Below, piece by piece: positions 6,390 to 18,760 of a stretch of DNA of 53,026 nt. How positions within the stretch are numbered: position 1 is the stretch's first letter; every line of letters starts with the position of its first letter. Source of the stretch: an uncultured Pelagibacteraceae bacterium (GTDB lineage: Bacteria; Pseudomonadota; Alphaproteobacteria; Pelagibacterales; Pelagibacteraceae); NCBI GenBank assembly GCA_902558205.1, contig CACECY010000004.1, positions 1 to 53,026 on the forward strand, given 5' to 3'. The notes beneath the pieces were generated by a model. That model had not been told where the DNA came from. It did no database searches and saw only the letters and a program-made list of their open reading frames with translations. Both the position numbers and the translations under genes were made by a program.

Positions 6390-7378
6390 TAGTTAAAAAT
6401 TTAGATTTAAAAAAAAATCTTAAAGGCAATAAAAATTTTCTACTACATGGGATAAACTCTGGTTTAATAAATCAAACAATAGATGATACTTTAAAACCAA
6501 ATTTTTCCAAAAATATCTATAATTATGACGAACAAGAAATTTTATCCAATTCAGATCAATTTAAAGAGGATGTCTTTAACAAGTCTTTTTTTGAAGAGGA
6601 TAAACTTATAATCATTAATAGAGCTTCAGACAAAATTAAAAATATTTTAGAGGAAATAATTGAAAAACAAATCGATGATTTAACATTAATTGTTAAATCT
6701 GGAATATTAGATAAAAAGTCTAAGCTGAGGATTTTTTTTGAGAAAGAAAAAAATACAATTGCAACTGCTTATTATGAAGATGGTTATCGAGATTTGAATT
6801 CAATAATCCAAAAATTCTTTTATGAAAAAAAAATTAAAATTTCATCTCAATCAACAAATGTTTTAATTGAAAGATCTAATGGAAATAGAATTAATTTAAT
6901 TAATGAATTAGATAAAATTTCAAATTATTTGTTTAATAAAAAAAAAATTGATTATGAAGAAATTTGTAAATTAACAAATTTATCTGAAAACCATAAAATT
7001 TCTGATTTGACTGATCATGCATTGGCAAATAATAAACTTAAAACTTTAAACATAATAAATGAAAACATCTTAACTTCAGAAGATTACATTCTTATTCTAA
7101 AAAATTTTTTATACAAAATTAAAAGACTTAAAAAACTAAAGAAAAATCTTGAGGGAAACAAAAACTTGGAAAGTGTGATTTCATCCTATAAGCCACCTAT
7201 ATTTTGGAAAGAAAAAGATATAATTAAAAAACAATTAAGAATAATTTCTCTTGAAAAGCTAAATGCACTTTCTGTTAAAGTAAATGATTTGGAAAAATTG
7301 ATAAAAGAAAATTCTAAAATATCAGGCTTGCTTTTATATAACTTTATTCTAGAACTTTTTAGTATTGCTAATAATTAG
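6386..7378 (+). CDS. holA: DNA polymerase III subunit delta
   Basis: HolA-like sequence (LKSGILDKKSKLRIFFEK, ERSNGNRINLINELDKI) and gene order. Confidence 0.85.
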   Translation: MIVKNLDLKKNLKGNKNFLLHGINSGLINQTIDDTLKPNFSKNIYNYDEQEILSNSDQFKEDVFNKSFFEEDKLIIINRASDKIKNILEEIIEKQIDDLTLIVKSGILDKKSKLRIFFEKEKNTIATAYYEDGYRDLNSIIQKFFYEKKIKISSQSTNVLIERSNGNRINLINELDKISNYLFNKKKIDYEEICKLTNLSENHKISDLTDHALANNKLKTLNIINENILTSEDYILILKNFLYKIKRLKKLKKNLEGNKNLESVISSYKPPIFWKEKDIIKKQLRIISLEKLNALSVKVNDLEKLIKENSKISGLLLYNFILELFSIANN

Positions 7379-8210
7379 ATTTAATTATTTCAATAATTTT
7401 GTTTAATTGGTCTAATTCTTTATATCCAAATGTAATTGTTCCTTTATTTTGCTTATTATTTTTAATAGCAACATTTAATCCAATTTTTTCAGATAATGAA
7501 TTTTCTAAATCTTTAATATTAGGATCCTTATTATCTTTGAGTTTATTTTTTTTTGTTTTAAAAATTTTAACAAAATTTTCAGTTTGTCTAACTGAAAGCT
7601 TTTTTTCTATAATTTTATTAGCTACAAAACTTGCATTTTCAAGACCGACTAAAATTTTTGCATGACCAGCGCTTATTTTTAAAGATTCAATTAGCTTTAT
7701 CACGCTTTCGGGTAACGTTAAAAGTCTCAATGAGTTTGTAATATAGCTTCTACTTTTTCCAATGAATTTTGAAACTTTTTCTTGGTCATAGTTAAATTCA
7801 TCAATTAATTTTTTGTAACCTTGGGCTTCTTCTAATGGATTTAAATCATGTCTTTGAATATTTTCAACTATTGCAAATTCCAAAGATTTTAAGTCATCCG
7901 CTTCTGTAATAACAACTGGTACATTATGAAGACCAGCCTTTTGAGCGGCAAGCCACCTTCTTTCACCTGCAATAATTTCGTATTTGGAAATATCATCACC
8001 AGATTTTCTGACTACAATTGGTTGTATTATTCCCCTTTCCTTAATAGAGTTAGTCAGTTCCTCTAAATTGCTCTCTTCGAAAATTTTTCTTGGTTGATAT
8101 TTATTTGGTACTAAATCACTAACTGACAATTGATTTTTTAAAGGTTCAACCTTTGTTTCTCCTATTAGTGAGGATAAACCTCGTCCTAGTCCCTTTTTAA
8201 TTTTATCCAT
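7368..8210 (-). CDS. parB: chromosome partitioning protein ParB
   Basis: KKGLGRGLSSLIGE, NKYQPRKIF, IIAGERRWLAAQKAG, ENIQRHDLNPLEEA. Confidence 0.97.
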   Translation of the reverse strand: MDKIKKGLGRGLSSLIGETKVEPLKNQLSVSDLVPNKYQPRKIFEESNLEELTNSIKERGIIQPIVVRKSGDDISKYEIIAGERRWLAAQKAGLHNVPVVITEADDLKSLEFAIVENIQRHDLNPLEEAQGYKKLIDEFNYDQEKVSKFIGKSRSYITNSLRLLTLPESVIKLIESLKISAGHAKILVGLENASFVANKIIEKKLSVRQTENFVKIFKTKKNKLKDNKDPNIKDLENSLSEKIGLNVAIKNNKQNKGTITFGYKELDQLNKIIEIIKSNY

Positions 8211-9004
8211 TAAGCTGCACTTCCTATTGAAGATTCTTGACTTATAAATTCATCAGTAAAATTAAAATATGATTTACTTCCTGGGCAAGCTTTGTCATAA
8301 ATTAAAACTGGCATTCCATGTGATGGCGCTTCAGATAATCTCACATTTCTTGGAATAACTGTTGTATAAACTTTATCACTAAAATAATCTCTAGCCTCTT
8401 TTTCAACTTGAGAAGATAACTTATTTCGTTTGTCATACATCGTTAAAAGTATGCCCCTTATTTTTAGATCGGGATTTAAACTTACTTTTATCCTTTCAAT
8501 TGTCTTCATAAGCTGAGTTAAGCCCTCCAGAGCAAAAAATTCTGTTTGTAGGGGGACTAAAAGTGAACCGGAAGATACTAAAGCCATAACTGTCAATAAA
8601 CTCAATGAAGGTGGACAATCAATTAAAACATAATCATATAATCCTCTAGAATTGTTTAAATACGTGGTTAATTTAGCCTTTAATATGAAGGCCCTGTTAC
8701 CATCTTCTGCTGTTTCTACCTCTAGACCTGATAAATCCACATTAGAAGTAATTATATCTAAATTTTCAAACTGAGTTTTTTTAATTACTTCATTTATTTC
8801 TTTAGAACCATTTAGGACCCCGTAAATCGTGTCACTAGAATCATCCATATTTGATAGTCCTAGTCCTGTTGTTGCATTTCCCTGAGGATCAAGATCGATA
8901 ACTAAAATTTTTTTATTTAGCTGCGATAATCCAGCTGCAAGATTTATTACAGTAGTGGTTTTTCCTACCCCGCCCTTTTGATTTATAATTGAAATGATTT
9001 GCAT
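8210..9004 (-). CDS. parA: chromosome partitioning ATPase ParA
   Basis: INQKGGVGKTTT deviant Walker A, DLDPQGNATTGLG. Confidence 0.97.
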   Translation of the reverse strand: MQIISIINQKGGVGKTTTVINLAAGLSQLNKKILVIDLDPQGNATTGLGLSNMDDSSDTIYGVLNGSKEINEVIKKTQFENLDIITSNVDLSGLEVETAEDGNRAFILKAKLTTYLNNSRGLYDYVLIDCPPSLSLLTVMALVSSGSLLVPLQTEFFALEGLTQLMKTIERIKVSLNPDLKIRGILLTMYDKRNKLSSQVEKEARDYFSDKVYTTVIPRNVRLSEAPSHGMPVLIYDKACPGSKSYFNFTDEFISQESSIGSAA

Positions 9005-9649
9005 CTAATTTTTTTTTTTAATTTTTTTAATATTTAATAAAAAGGAACTATCATTAGTTAAACTTTTTTTTTCTTCATATTCTAATTCCCAATTTTTTTT
9101 TGATTCTTCAAAAATTTTTTTTCCACTCTTGCCCATGAAAAAAATTAAATTTTTAAAATCTGAAAAATTTTCATAAACTAGATCTAAAACAATTGGCATA
9201 GGTTTGAATGCTCTTGACATAATTGTTCCTGTCTTTAATTTTTTTACATCAAAAATATTTTTTTGAAAAACTTTTGTATTTAAATTTAATTTTTTGGAAA
9301 CTTCTCTCAAAAAATGGCTTTTATGGTGACTCTTTTCATAAAGATGCACATTCATGCTATTTTTCATATTTTTTAGCATAATTGCAATTATAATTCCTGG
9401 CATTCCACCCCCAGATCCTAAATCTATGGTTGTATTACTATTTAAATTAACAAAATCAATGATTTGCGCTGAATCTATTATATGACGATCAATAATGGCC
9501 TTTTTTGACGCTGTTTTTTTGCTTATTATGTTAATTTTTTTATTTTTTTCTAATACCAATGATATATAGTTTTCAAAGTCTAAAAATGTTTCACGTGAAA
9601 CATTTAAGCCATTGAGTCTTGAGTAAGAATTTAAAATTTCTTGGTCCAT
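9005..9649 (-). CDS. rsmG: 16S rRNA (guanine-N7)-methyltransferase RsmG
   Basis: NVSRETF, DLGSGGGMPGI SAM motif; parA-rsmG-mnmG order. Confidence 0.95.
   Translation of the reverse strand: MDQEILNSYSRLNGLNVSRETFLDFENYISLVLEKNKKINIISKKTASKKAIIDRHIIDSAQIIDFVNLNSNTTIDLGSGGGMPGIIIAIMLKNMKNSMNVHLYEKSHHKSHFLREVSKKLNLNTKVFQKNIFDVKKLKTGTIMSRAFKPMPIVLDLVYENFSDFKNLIFFMGKSGKKIFEESKKNWELEYEEKKSLTNDSSFLLNIKKIKKKN
9584..9605. promoter_or_regulatory. parS centromere-like site (ParB binding)
   Basis: Exact parS consensus TGTTTCACGTGAAACA at 9587-9602, extended to 22-bp palindrome AAATGTTTCACGTGAAACATTT, within rsmG (encodes NVSRETF). Confidence 0.96.
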
Positions 9650-13013: not shown

Positions 13014-13853
13014 ATGATCATTTGGCTAGCTTCCTTTCCAAAAAGTGGAAATACTTGGTTAAGATCTATAATATCTTCGCTAATTTACAGTGATGATGGA
13101 ATATTTAATTTTGAATTGAATAAAAAGATCAAACAGTTTCCATCAATACCTTTTTTTCAAGATTTTACACAAGATTATAATAACATTCATGAAATTAAGA
13201 AATTATGGATATTAGCTCAGGATAAATTGAATTTAGATAATAAATTAAAATTTTTGAAAACTCATCATATTAATTGCACTATAGATGGTTACTCATTTAC
13301 AAACAAAGAAAATACAGCAGCTACAATTTATATTGTAAGAGATCCAAGAAATTTAGTTAACTCTATATCTAATCACTTTTCAAAAAATCAAACTGAAGCA
13401 ACAGAGTTTCTATTCAGATCTAACATTTTGGGTGCAAGTAAAAGTAATACCTTACCTAGTGATGTAGCAACGATCCTGGGATCTTGGAAAGATCACTATC
13501 ATTTTTGGACTAAAAAAAATGATAAATTACTACTAATCAAATATGAGGATATTGTTCTTAATCCTAAAAATGAATTAAAAAAAATTATTAAATTTTTAAG
13601 TAGATTTACAAAAGTTGAAACAAATAACACCAAAGAAGCGAATATCATAAATTCTACATCATTTGAGACTCTTAGAAAGATGGAACAAAACGGAGAGTTT
13701 ACAGAGAATGTATTTGATAAAATTTCAAACAAAAAAATCAAGTTTTTTAATCAGGGTCCAAGTAATAAATGGCAGGATAGTCTAAAAGATGAAATTAGGT
13801 CAGAAATTGAAGCTAAACTTAATACTGAAATGAAAGAATTGGGCTACTTATAA
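13014..13853 (+). CDS. PAPS-dependent sulfotransferase domain protein
   Basis: WLASFPKSGNTWLRSII (5'-PSB) and YIVRDPRNLVNSISNHF (3'-PB) motifs. Confidence 0.88.
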   Translation: MIIWLASFPKSGNTWLRSIISSLIYSDDGIFNFELNKKIKQFPSIPFFQDFTQDYNNIHEIKKLWILAQDKLNLDNKLKFLKTHHINCTIDGYSFTNKENTAATIYIVRDPRNLVNSISNHFSKNQTEATEFLFRSNILGASKSNTLPSDVATILGSWKDHYHFWTKKNDKLLLIKYEDIVLNPKNELKKIIKFLSRFTKVETNNTKEANIINSTSFETLRKMEQNGEFTENVFDKISNKKIKFFNQGPSNKWQDSLKDEIRSEIEAKLNTEMKELGYL

Positions 13854-15623: not shown

Positions 15624-16651
15624 AGCTTAAACAAGGACATCTTTTAAATTGATTTGGACACTGTACCTTTGGTGGGTAAAGTTTTCCATTTAAATTATAA
15701 TCCTGTTTATTAATAATTAGATTTGACATCGCTTTTATGTAATTTTCGTTTGTTCCGAGAGCGGGCACTCTTGAATAATTCTTACAACCATTCTTAGTTG
15801 CTAATTCCTTATATTCAATATCTAACTCTACTAAAGTTTCCGAATGTTCTGAAACGAACGCAATAGGAACTAAAACAATATGCTTTCCTAATTTTGAGTT
15901 TTCTACGATTATATCATCGGTAGATGGGCCAATCCACTTTAAAGGTCCAACTCGACTTTGATAACTTAATATCCAGTCTAAGTTTTTAATATCTAAAGAC
16001 TTAACAATTTTATCAACCGATTGTTCTACTTGCCATTGATATGGATCTCCCTTTTTAATATTTTTTTCAGGCAATCCGTGTGCAGAAAAAATTAATTTAA
16101 AATTATCTAAATTATTAATTTTTTTAATTATTTCATCCTTATGCGCTTGAACAAAATTTTCATCAGTGGGATAGCAACAAATCGTAGATGTTTTTGTTTC
16201 AAAGTTATTTTTTAGGCATATATTTTTCCATTCTTTTATTGATGAGCCAGAGGTTGCTGCTGAAAATTGAGGATAGAGTGGCATTAAAATTACTTCTTCT
16301 GGATTATAATTCATCACATCTTTAAGAACATTTTCTGCTCTAGGGTGCCAACATCTCATTACCACAAAACACTTATATTCTGATAAATCATCGTCTTGAT
16401 TTAATCTTAATTCCAAAGCGAGGGATTGCTCGTTTGTAAGTTTTAAAATTGGTGAGGAGCCTCCCAATTCTTCATAAATTTTTTTGGCTGTAGGAGCCCT
16501 TCTATTAGCTATCAATTTTGCTAACGGATATCTAAAAAAACTTGGTAAGTTTAAGATTGCAGGATCATTAAATAAATTAAATAAAAATGGCTCAACATTT
16601 TCTAACTTGTCTGGACCACCTAAATTAAAAAAGAATAACAGCTTTTTTCAT
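15616..16651 (-). CDS. hemH: ferrochelatase, apparent +1 frame disruption near N-terminus (ORF track start 16515 is truncated)
   Basis: Main frame covers 15616-16626 (NLGGPDKLENVEPFLFNLFNDPAIL...LIFSAHGLPEKN..); native start MKKAVILF at 16651 is in another frame, joined at T6 run 16627-16632. Confidence 0.85.
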
Positions 16652-17652
16652 TTGTATTCTTTTACGGTTTGAACCAAATACTCCATCATCTCCGGGTTGG
16701 TTTCTGGCAACACACCATGTCCAAGATTAAAGATATATGGATGATCTTTAAAAATTTCTAAATATCTTATTATTTCTTTTTTTAAATTATCTTTATCTGT
16801 TAATAAAACTTTGGGGTCCAGTCCTCCTTGAACTGGTATATCTATTTCTTTGATAATTTTTGTAGGATCAATATTATAGTCGATGCTAATTGCATTTGGT
16901 TTAACAATTTCACAGTAATCTTTATAATTCGAAATTCCTCTCGGAAAACATATAACTGGTATATTTAATGATTTCACATAATCTACTAAACTTAGTGTTG
17001 GAATATATACATAATTTGGTAAATCTTTTTCATCTAATAAACCAGCCCAACTATCAAAAATTTGAATTACTTTAGCACCATTTTCAATCTGATTTTTAAT
17101 ATGAATTTTTAAAAATTTATCTAATAAATCTAAAATTCTGTTAATTAAAAATTGATCCTTAAAAAAATCTTCTCGTAACTCTTTTTTAGGAGATTTTTTG
17201 TTTAATATATAAACTAATAAAGTCCAGGGCGCCCCAACAAACCCTATGGTGCTTTTTCCCTTTAATAATTCATTTTGTGAAACTTTACTAATGGCTTTGT
17301 AAACAGGAAATATTTTTTTTATAAAATCTATCTCATCTATGCTTGATACTTTTTTAATATCTAAATCGCCTAATATTGGTCCATAATTTTTTTTAAATTC
17401 AACTTTTTGATCTAGTGCATATGGTAACATTAAAATATCTGAAAAAATAATTGCTGCATCAAAATTAAATCTTTTTAATGGTTGCAAGGTTATTTCTGTT
17501 GTTAAATTTTCATTTAAACATAATTTTATAAAATCAGTATTTTTAGATCTAATTTCTCTAAATTCTGGTAAATATCTTCCAGCTTGCCTCATTATCCATA
17601 TTGGATTTAGCCTTGTTTTTTTATTAACTAATACTTGTTCGATTAAGTTCAT
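16648..17652 (-). CDS. hemE: uroporphyrinogen decarboxylase (start refined to MNLIEQ)
   Basis: PIWIMRQAGRYLPEFRE, GFVGAPWTLLVY, NLGHGVLPETNPE. Confidence 0.97.
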   Translation of the reverse strand: MNLIEQVLVNKKTRLNPIWIMRQAGRYLPEFREIRSKNTDFIKLCLNENLTTEITLQPLKRFNFDAAIIFSDILMLPYALDQKVEFKKNYGPILGDLDIKKVSSIDEIDFIKKIFPVYKAISKVSQNELLKGKSTIGFVGAPWTLLVYILNKKSPKKELREDFFKDQFLINRILDLLDKFLKIHIKNQIENGAKVIQIFDSWAGLLDEKDLPNYVYIPTLSLVDYVKSLNIPVICFPRGISNYKDYCEIVKPNAISIDYNIDPTKIIKEIDIPVQGGLDPKVLLTDKDNLKKEIIRYLEIFKDHPYIFNLGHGVLPETNPEMMEYLVQTVKEYK

Positions 17653-17932
17653 ATAAATAATCAATAATATTTAATTGTATTAGTATTATATCCTGTTAAT
17701 TACGATTATTAATTTTTACACACTTTTTATATACAGTTTATTAAAACAAAATTAATAATAAACCTTGATATTACATAGTAATTTAAACAAATATTAAGTT
17801 ATTTATTAAAATGTATAAATTTATTAACATGTTTAATATTGTGAATAATTAATGATATTTACATTAAATTTTAAATCAATTTTATAATGAAAAATAAAAC
17901 TCTAGAAATTCAATCTTATCAACATTTAATAC
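17653..17932. other. candidate chromosomal replication origin (oriC)
   Basis: Longest non-coding AT-rich gap in the window, between divergent hemE and ppsR; DnaA-box-like TTTTACACA (17714-17722 +) and TTATTCACA (17840-17848 -) plus one-mismatch TTATATACA, TTATTAACA, TTATCAACA; parS and parAB about 8 kb away; gene strand switches here. Confidence 0.75.
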
Positions 17933-18760
17933 ATGAGTAATACTTTCCAAATATACTTAATATCAGATTCAACGGGTGAAACTCTAGATAGAATCTTTTT
18001 AGCCTTAAAAGCTCAATTTAATAATATTGAATATAAAGTTCATCCTTACTCATTTACGAGAACTGAAAATCAAATTACTAAAATTCTAGAGATTGCAAAA
18101 AAAAACGAAAATTCAATAATATTATATACCATCGTAGATAATAACCTTGCAAAGTTTTTAGCAAATCAAAGTGATGACAAAGGACTTCCTTGTTTTGGAG
18201 TTTTGGGAAATTTAATTTTAAGTTTTTCTAAGCTATTAAATCAAAAGGCTTCTCACGAACCTAGCGGACAACACGTGTTGAATGAGGAATATTATCAGCG
18301 TATAGAGGCAATCCAATTTACAATGAATCATGATGATGGAAACTTAGCAAATGAAGTAGGAAAATCAGATATAATTTTACTTGGTGTTAGTAGAACGAGC
18401 AAAACACCAACATCAATTTATTTAGCCAACAAGGGCTACAAGACATCAAATATTCCACTTATAAATGAAAACTCAGTGCCCAAAGTTTTAAAAGACAATC
18501 CTAAAATTAGTTGTGTAATTGGGTTAAATACTGAAGCCGAAAGACTTGTTGATATCAGAAAGAACCGAATGAACTCATTAAAAGAAATAGATAATAAAAA
18601 ATATACAAATATAGAAAATATTCAAAAAGAAATTGATGACGCAAAAAAAACTTTTAAGCGATATGGTTGGCCGACTATTGACGTTACCAGAAAATCAGTA
18701 GAAGAAACAGCAGCATCAATTATTAAAATTCACGAAATATATACTCAAAATAATGAATAA
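17933..18760 (+). CDS. ppsR: pyruvate, phosphate dikinase / PEP synthase regulatory protein (DUF299 kinase-pyrophosphorylase)
   Basis: YLISDSTGETLDRI, HEPSGQHVLNEEYYQRIEAI, LGVSRTSKTPTSIYLANKGYKTSNIPL. Confidence 0.96.
   Translation: MSNTFQIYLISDSTGETLDRIFLALKAQFNNIEYKVHPYSFTRTENQITKILEIAKKNENSIILYTIVDNNLAKFLANQSDDKGLPCFGVLGNLILSFSKLLNQKASHEPSGQHVLNEEYYQRIEAIQFTMNHDDGNLANEVGKSDIILLGVSRTSKTPTSIYLANKGYKTSNIPLINENSVPKVLKDNPKISCVIGLNTEAERLVDIRKNRMNSLKEIDNKKYTNIENIQKEIDDAKKTFKRYGWPTIDVTRKSVEETAASIIKIHEIYTQNNE

Follow-up and report, generated by a model that had tools for sequence, protein, structure and literature searches.

A predicted chromosomal replication origin in the hemE-ppsR intergenic region of a SAR11 bacterium

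Gene neighbourhood of the hemE-ppsR gap

The DNA analyzed here, referred to as the window, is the whole of one SAR11 (Pelagibacter-type) contig (C4, 53,026 bp), which belongs to a 622-kb, 43-contig assembly that is 54% complete. The named relatives closest to it are Pelagibacteraceae. The gene order deduced from Pfam matches is parB-parA-rsmG-mnmG-mnmE-[sulfotransferase]-rho-hemJ-hemH-hemE, followed by an intergenic gap and then by ppsR-maf-aroE-coaE-dnaQ-secB-fxsA-Tim44. The gene that we take to be hemJ is a UPF0093 match. The sulfotransferase-domain gene (13014-13853, plus strand), which has mnmE and rho as neighbours, breaks the minus-strand run near the predicted origin.

An earlier note on this DNA, made from the sequence, had proposed the gap as a candidate chromosomal origin, and its description of the locus was borne out. 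The start codons of the two outward-pointing flanking genes (ATG at 17652, minus strand, for hemE and at 17933, plus strand, for ppsR) leave a gap of 280 bp with the limits that it gave. The gap is indeed very AT-rich, with a GC content of 13.8% vs 28.8% in the window (86% vs 71% AT). The parAB genes and parS, placed by the note about 8 kb to the left, were found 8-10 kb from the gap as parB (7368-8210), parA (8210-9004) and a perfect parS palindrome. The palindrome lies within the rsmG coding sequence and not in an intergenic region. All the DnaA boxes that had been listed are present with their coordinates and strands. The features are collected in Table 1.

Table 1. Genes and predicted origin elements in and around the hemE-ppsR gap. 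Percentages and counts refer to 107 distinct aligned SAR11 gap copies.
Feature	Position	Strand	Remarks
parB-parA, chromosome partition	7368..9004	-	ParB_N, HTH_ParB and AAA_31 matches
parS palindrome, perfect	9587..9602		0 mismatches to TGTTTCACGTGAAACA
hemE, uroporphyrinogen decarboxylase, left flank	16648..17652	-	PF01208, E 8e-84
hemE-ppsR gap, predicted oriC	17653..17932		box cluster, conservation, skew switch, ranking
DnaA-trio-like array TAT-TAG-TAT-TAT, predicted strand-opening site	17678..17689	+	3-base periodic conservation
4-nt spacer ATCC, triplets to box 1	17690..17693	+	ATCT/ATCC in 60/107
Box 1, trio-proximal DnaA box, degenerate TAATTAACA	17694..17702	-	TTATTCACA in 88/107 relatives
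DnaA box TTTTACACA	17714..17722	+	almost private to the window's sublineage
DnaA box TTATATACA	17727..17735	+	box within 1 mismatch in 61% of relatives
DnaA-box-like word TTATTAACA	17821	+	conserved in 16% of relatives
Box 5, DnaA box TTATTCACA	17840..17848	-	93% of relatives; there mostly TTATTAACA
Box 6, DnaA box TTATCAACA, just before ppsR	17916..17924	+	69% of relatives
ppsR, DUF299/COG1806 kinase-pyrophosphorylase, right flank	17933..18760	+	PF03618, E 1e-88

The gap holds five boxes that differ from TTATNCACA by at most one mismatch vs 0.88 expected from dinucleotide-model shuffles (P ~0.002), and the pattern TTWTNCACA occurs twice vs 0.066 expected in shuffles. Single boxes are uninformative and clusters alone count, because genome-wide numbers of TTWTNCACA barely exceed those of a reversed-pattern control (192 vs 154 in genome G012 and 170 vs 158 in G082). 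The degenerate IHF consensus is likewise uninformative in DNA of 86% AT.

A CtrA-like TTAA-N7-TTAA spacing, which had been reported at 17783, is present there, together with a second copy at 17741 that the earlier note lacked. Shuffles of the gap contain at least one such motif with a probability of 0.26 and at least two with a probability of 0.04, and no conserved position was found for it in the 107 relatives. According to a comparative study, Pelagibacter has no ctrA ortholog (PMC2877005). The matches of four OmpR-family proteins, all taken from complete SAR11 genomes, were to PhoB or fell below threshold, and none came near the CtrA cut-off. On these grounds, a motif near chance level, no reported ctrA ortholog and no CtrA-like protein among those four, control by CtrA was rejected. 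Separately, a small protein of about 190-206 aa with an OmpR-type DNA-binding domain, for which no curated-family match above the cut-off was found, is encoded in several relatives (loci L315, L316 and L317) at a distance of about 18-20 kb from the predicted origin.

Conservation of boxes and triplets in SAR11 relatives

In all SAR11 loci that were retrieved around ppsR and contain hemE, both flanks are kept, at a distance of 249-272 bp (tblastn boundaries). The 107 distinct gaps contain a mean of 4.8 boxes vs 0.93 in shuffles. The site of box 1 is within one mismatch in 93% of the relatives, and the exact form makes up 82%. The window's own box 1 is three mismatches from TTATCCACA and one from TTATTAACA, which is the form seen most often at boxes 5 and 6 across SAR11. 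Additionally, a plus-strand series of boxes at 17716, 17727 and 17738, with 11-bp spacing, is kept in 70%, 61% and 26% of the relatives, respectively. Within the gap, conservation is lowest in the middle (17747-17835). Seen in this alignment, the box list of the earlier note holds in part: its boxes at 17727, 17840 and 17916 match sites kept in 61-93% of the relatives, whereas that at 17821 is poorly kept and that at 17714 is nearly limited to one sublineage. Moreover, the list omitted the best conserved elements, namely the minus-strand box at 17694-17702 and the TAN array at 17678-17689.

The 17714 box is found in six of the seven gaps with a decayed box 1 vs one of the 100 other gaps; as these seven gaps are related, the association may represent a single evolutionary event. 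It is conceivable, though we consider it doubtful, that the origin was rewired in the window's sublineage, the order-typical, triplet-anchoring TTATTCACA box having decayed and a new strong box having arisen on the other strand at a distance of 20 bp. If true, the box from which DnaA loads on the triplets may be non-canonical or face the opposite way.

The triplet array adjoins box 1 on its hemE side and is accompanied by a further TTG triplet at 17675-17677. Across the 107 relatives the T recurs at every third base, with 97-100% conservation, through five triplets. The A is 93-98% conserved in triplets 1, 2 and 4; the third positions are variable. TTG stands at triplet 3 in half of the relatives and at triplet 5 in most. 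Four or more TAN triplets in a row are present in 31% of the gaps vs 0.8% of the shuffles, and strict TAG/TAA-only runs showed no excess in the gaps, the signal being T-A-N with occasional TTG. Triplet arrays are observed throughout the order; some members of family f2, a sister family within the SAR11 order, have (TAG)n forms (e.g., G099 and G093). In G012, G082 and G046, a pattern of triplets, spacer and perfect box matched the gap and nothing else over the 0.21-0.62 Mb scanned; in the gaps of G036, G152 and G091 the strict pattern had no match.

Genomic position and alternative explanations

We ranked intergenic regions of at least 150 bp by DnaA-box score in partial scans covering 0.18-0.62 Mb per genome. 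The gap came first in the window, G012, G082, G036 and G046, and second in G152 and G091; in AT content it was first among the intergenic regions in five of the seven sets. In G152, the closest complete relative, the gap holds three one-mismatch boxes and scores below the top window of the scanned sequence.

As raw GC skew tracks gene strand too closely, we used a strand-balanced third-position (GC3) skew, averaged over both gene strands, which removes most of this effect. When four same-genus genomes were pooled, every 20-kb bin that could be computed within 160 kb had a negative value on the hemE side and a positive one on the ppsR side; the individual genomes were noisier than the pool. The skew of a fifth same-genus genome, G152, agrees with a switch at the gap, and the expected switch was absent in the f2 genome G091, although gene orientation flips there at the gap. 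The change point lies +10 kb from the gap (bootstrap 5-95%, -10 to +45 kb), the resolution being tens of kb. In complete relatives dnaA is located 60-65 kb from the gap on the parAB side, and 0% of the bootstrap change points fell within 15 kb of it; a dnaA-proximal origin was rejected on this analysis. The skew check suggested in the earlier note thus places the switch in the gap region and not at dnaA.

One alternative is that the gap is merely the divergent promoter region of hemE and ppsR, perhaps regulated by DnaA, with the origin elsewhere, e.g., beside dnaA. The gap must contain the promoters of the two divergent genes that it separates, AT-rich DNA yields box-like words, and box 6 ends just 9 bp ahead of the ppsR start. 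However, the box score of the gap far exceeds those of the other divergent gaps, of which 6-19 were scanned per genome, its triplet array adjoins a box, and no bootstrap places the change point at dnaA. It also persists where ppsR has gone. In family f2, hemE was matched in 16 genomes, whereas ppsR was matched in no f2 genus in the relatives search. The seven f2 loci that were read (L247-L253) have hemE, then a gap of 265-307 bp containing boxes, then maf, and ppsR appears simply to have been lost. A gap that outlives this neighbour is hard to explain as the ppsR promoter, and we judge the promoter-only explanation very improbable.

Genus g12 offers another rearrangement. In G150, hemE (at 718 kb) and ppsR (at 140 kb) are about 578 kb apart, so that one flank of the origin has moved. 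The hemE copy of g12 has diverged (about 29% identity) and lies among densely packed genes on one strand (L254, L255), and no box cluster was found upstream of this copy.

A second alternative would put the true origin within some tens of kb of the gap, e.g., on the ppsR side, and make the gap a DnaA-titrating or regulatory cluster of boxes. It draws on the breadth of the skew interval, with its best value on that side, and on a secondary box peak at +62 kb in G012. Against it, the score of the gap is unmatched by the other intergenic regions in the scanned flanks of G012, G082, G036 and G046, the triplet array speaks for unwinding at the gap, and elsewhere in the class the origin sits at the hemE-COG1806 position (PMC1914354). 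We therefore regard an origin elsewhere near the gap as very unlikely.

The position of the gap, its box clustering, triplet array, conservation, skew switch and neighbouring parS are features of the sequence itself. With the box cluster, its conservation, the skew switch and parS all in support of the earlier proposal, the hemE-ppsR gap is very probably the oriC from which this SAR11 bacterium replicates its chromosome.

Predicted mechanism and comparison with known origins

DnaA binding, the melting site and initiation are inferred from these elements. DnaA-ATP would bind boxes across the gap (17694, the 17716-17738 series, 17840 and 17916), and a DnaA filament would grow from the 17694 box toward hemE onto the single-stranded T-A-N triplets. 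The AT-rich DNA on the hemE side, at about 17665-17690, would then melt, allowing two DnaB helicases to load for bidirectional replication, and ParB bound to parS about 8 kb away would segregate the new origins.

Such an arrangement resembles the basal unwinding system (BUS), a DnaA box plus DnaA-trios that was described in Bacillus subtilis and is predicted widely (PMC6669920, PMC8287927). A BUS has at least three consecutive central-A triplets (PMC8287927), and the window has four (TAT TAG TAT TAT). A DnaA box with at most two mismatches lies within 16 bp of the triplets in 93% of the relatives; the window's TAATTAACA has three mismatches to TTATCCACA but one to TTATTAACA. The SAR11 gap shares with the B. 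subtilis BUS a box, a 4-nt spacer, at least three central-A triplets and the right polarity. It differs in that the uniform 3'-GAT-5' is replaced by T-A-N with frequent TAT and TTG, and in the degenerate anchoring box of the window; the likeness is one of sequence. BUS-type unwinding from the hemE-side array is a likely mechanism for SAR11 generally. For the window's own sequence our confidence is lower, owing to the degenerate anchoring box, and we consider the mechanism only somewhat favoured there.

SAR11 bacteria count among the ocean's most abundant cells, and origin-to-terminus read depth is used to estimate their growth. One method of this type, GRiD, assigns fragments bearing dnaA to the origin (described in PMC7852909), and DnaA has served as the starting point of SAR11 genome alignments (PMC12421898); in the relatives examined, the distance between dnaA and the predicted origin is 60-65 kb. 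In the literature searched we found no description of a SAR11 origin sequence; databases such as DoriC may list predictions. The 280-bp sequence, whose boxes and triplets are defined, lends itself to direct tests, and the many related gap copies make a good case for studying the turnover of origin binding sites. The location itself is as expected for the class; the predicted origin is ordinary in kind and useful in detail.

In Caulobacter crescentus and Rickettsia prowazekii, the origin is found between hemE and COG1806 (CC_0001/RP001) and has DnaA boxes and a high AT content (82-83% AT and 383-396 bp in Rickettsia; Brassinga et al., as cited in PMC1914354). The present gap lies in the same place, and the earlier note had also pointed to the hemE-RP001 neighbourhood. 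The gap has the position, the box cluster and the above-average AT content of the hemE-COG1806 class, and no credible counterpart of the CtrA sites of Caulobacter, which vary elsewhere in the class. CtrA sites are scarce in several accepted members (PMC1914354), so their absence does not exclude membership. Like the Caulobacter and Rickettsia origins, the gap combines the two flanking genes with AT-richness and a cluster of DnaA boxes; unlike them, it is shorter and has neither credible CtrA sites nor a ctrA gene. The Wolbachia, Ehrlichia and Anaplasma origins lie between hemE and COG1253 (PMC1914354). In SAR11 family f2 (hemE-maf), as in these genera, the hemE side was retained after the other flank changed, but the f2 ppsR was apparently just lost, and the hemE-ppsR pair of the window is intact. 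By its sequence, the gap is a new, well-resolved predicted member of the known hemE-COG1806 class of origins.
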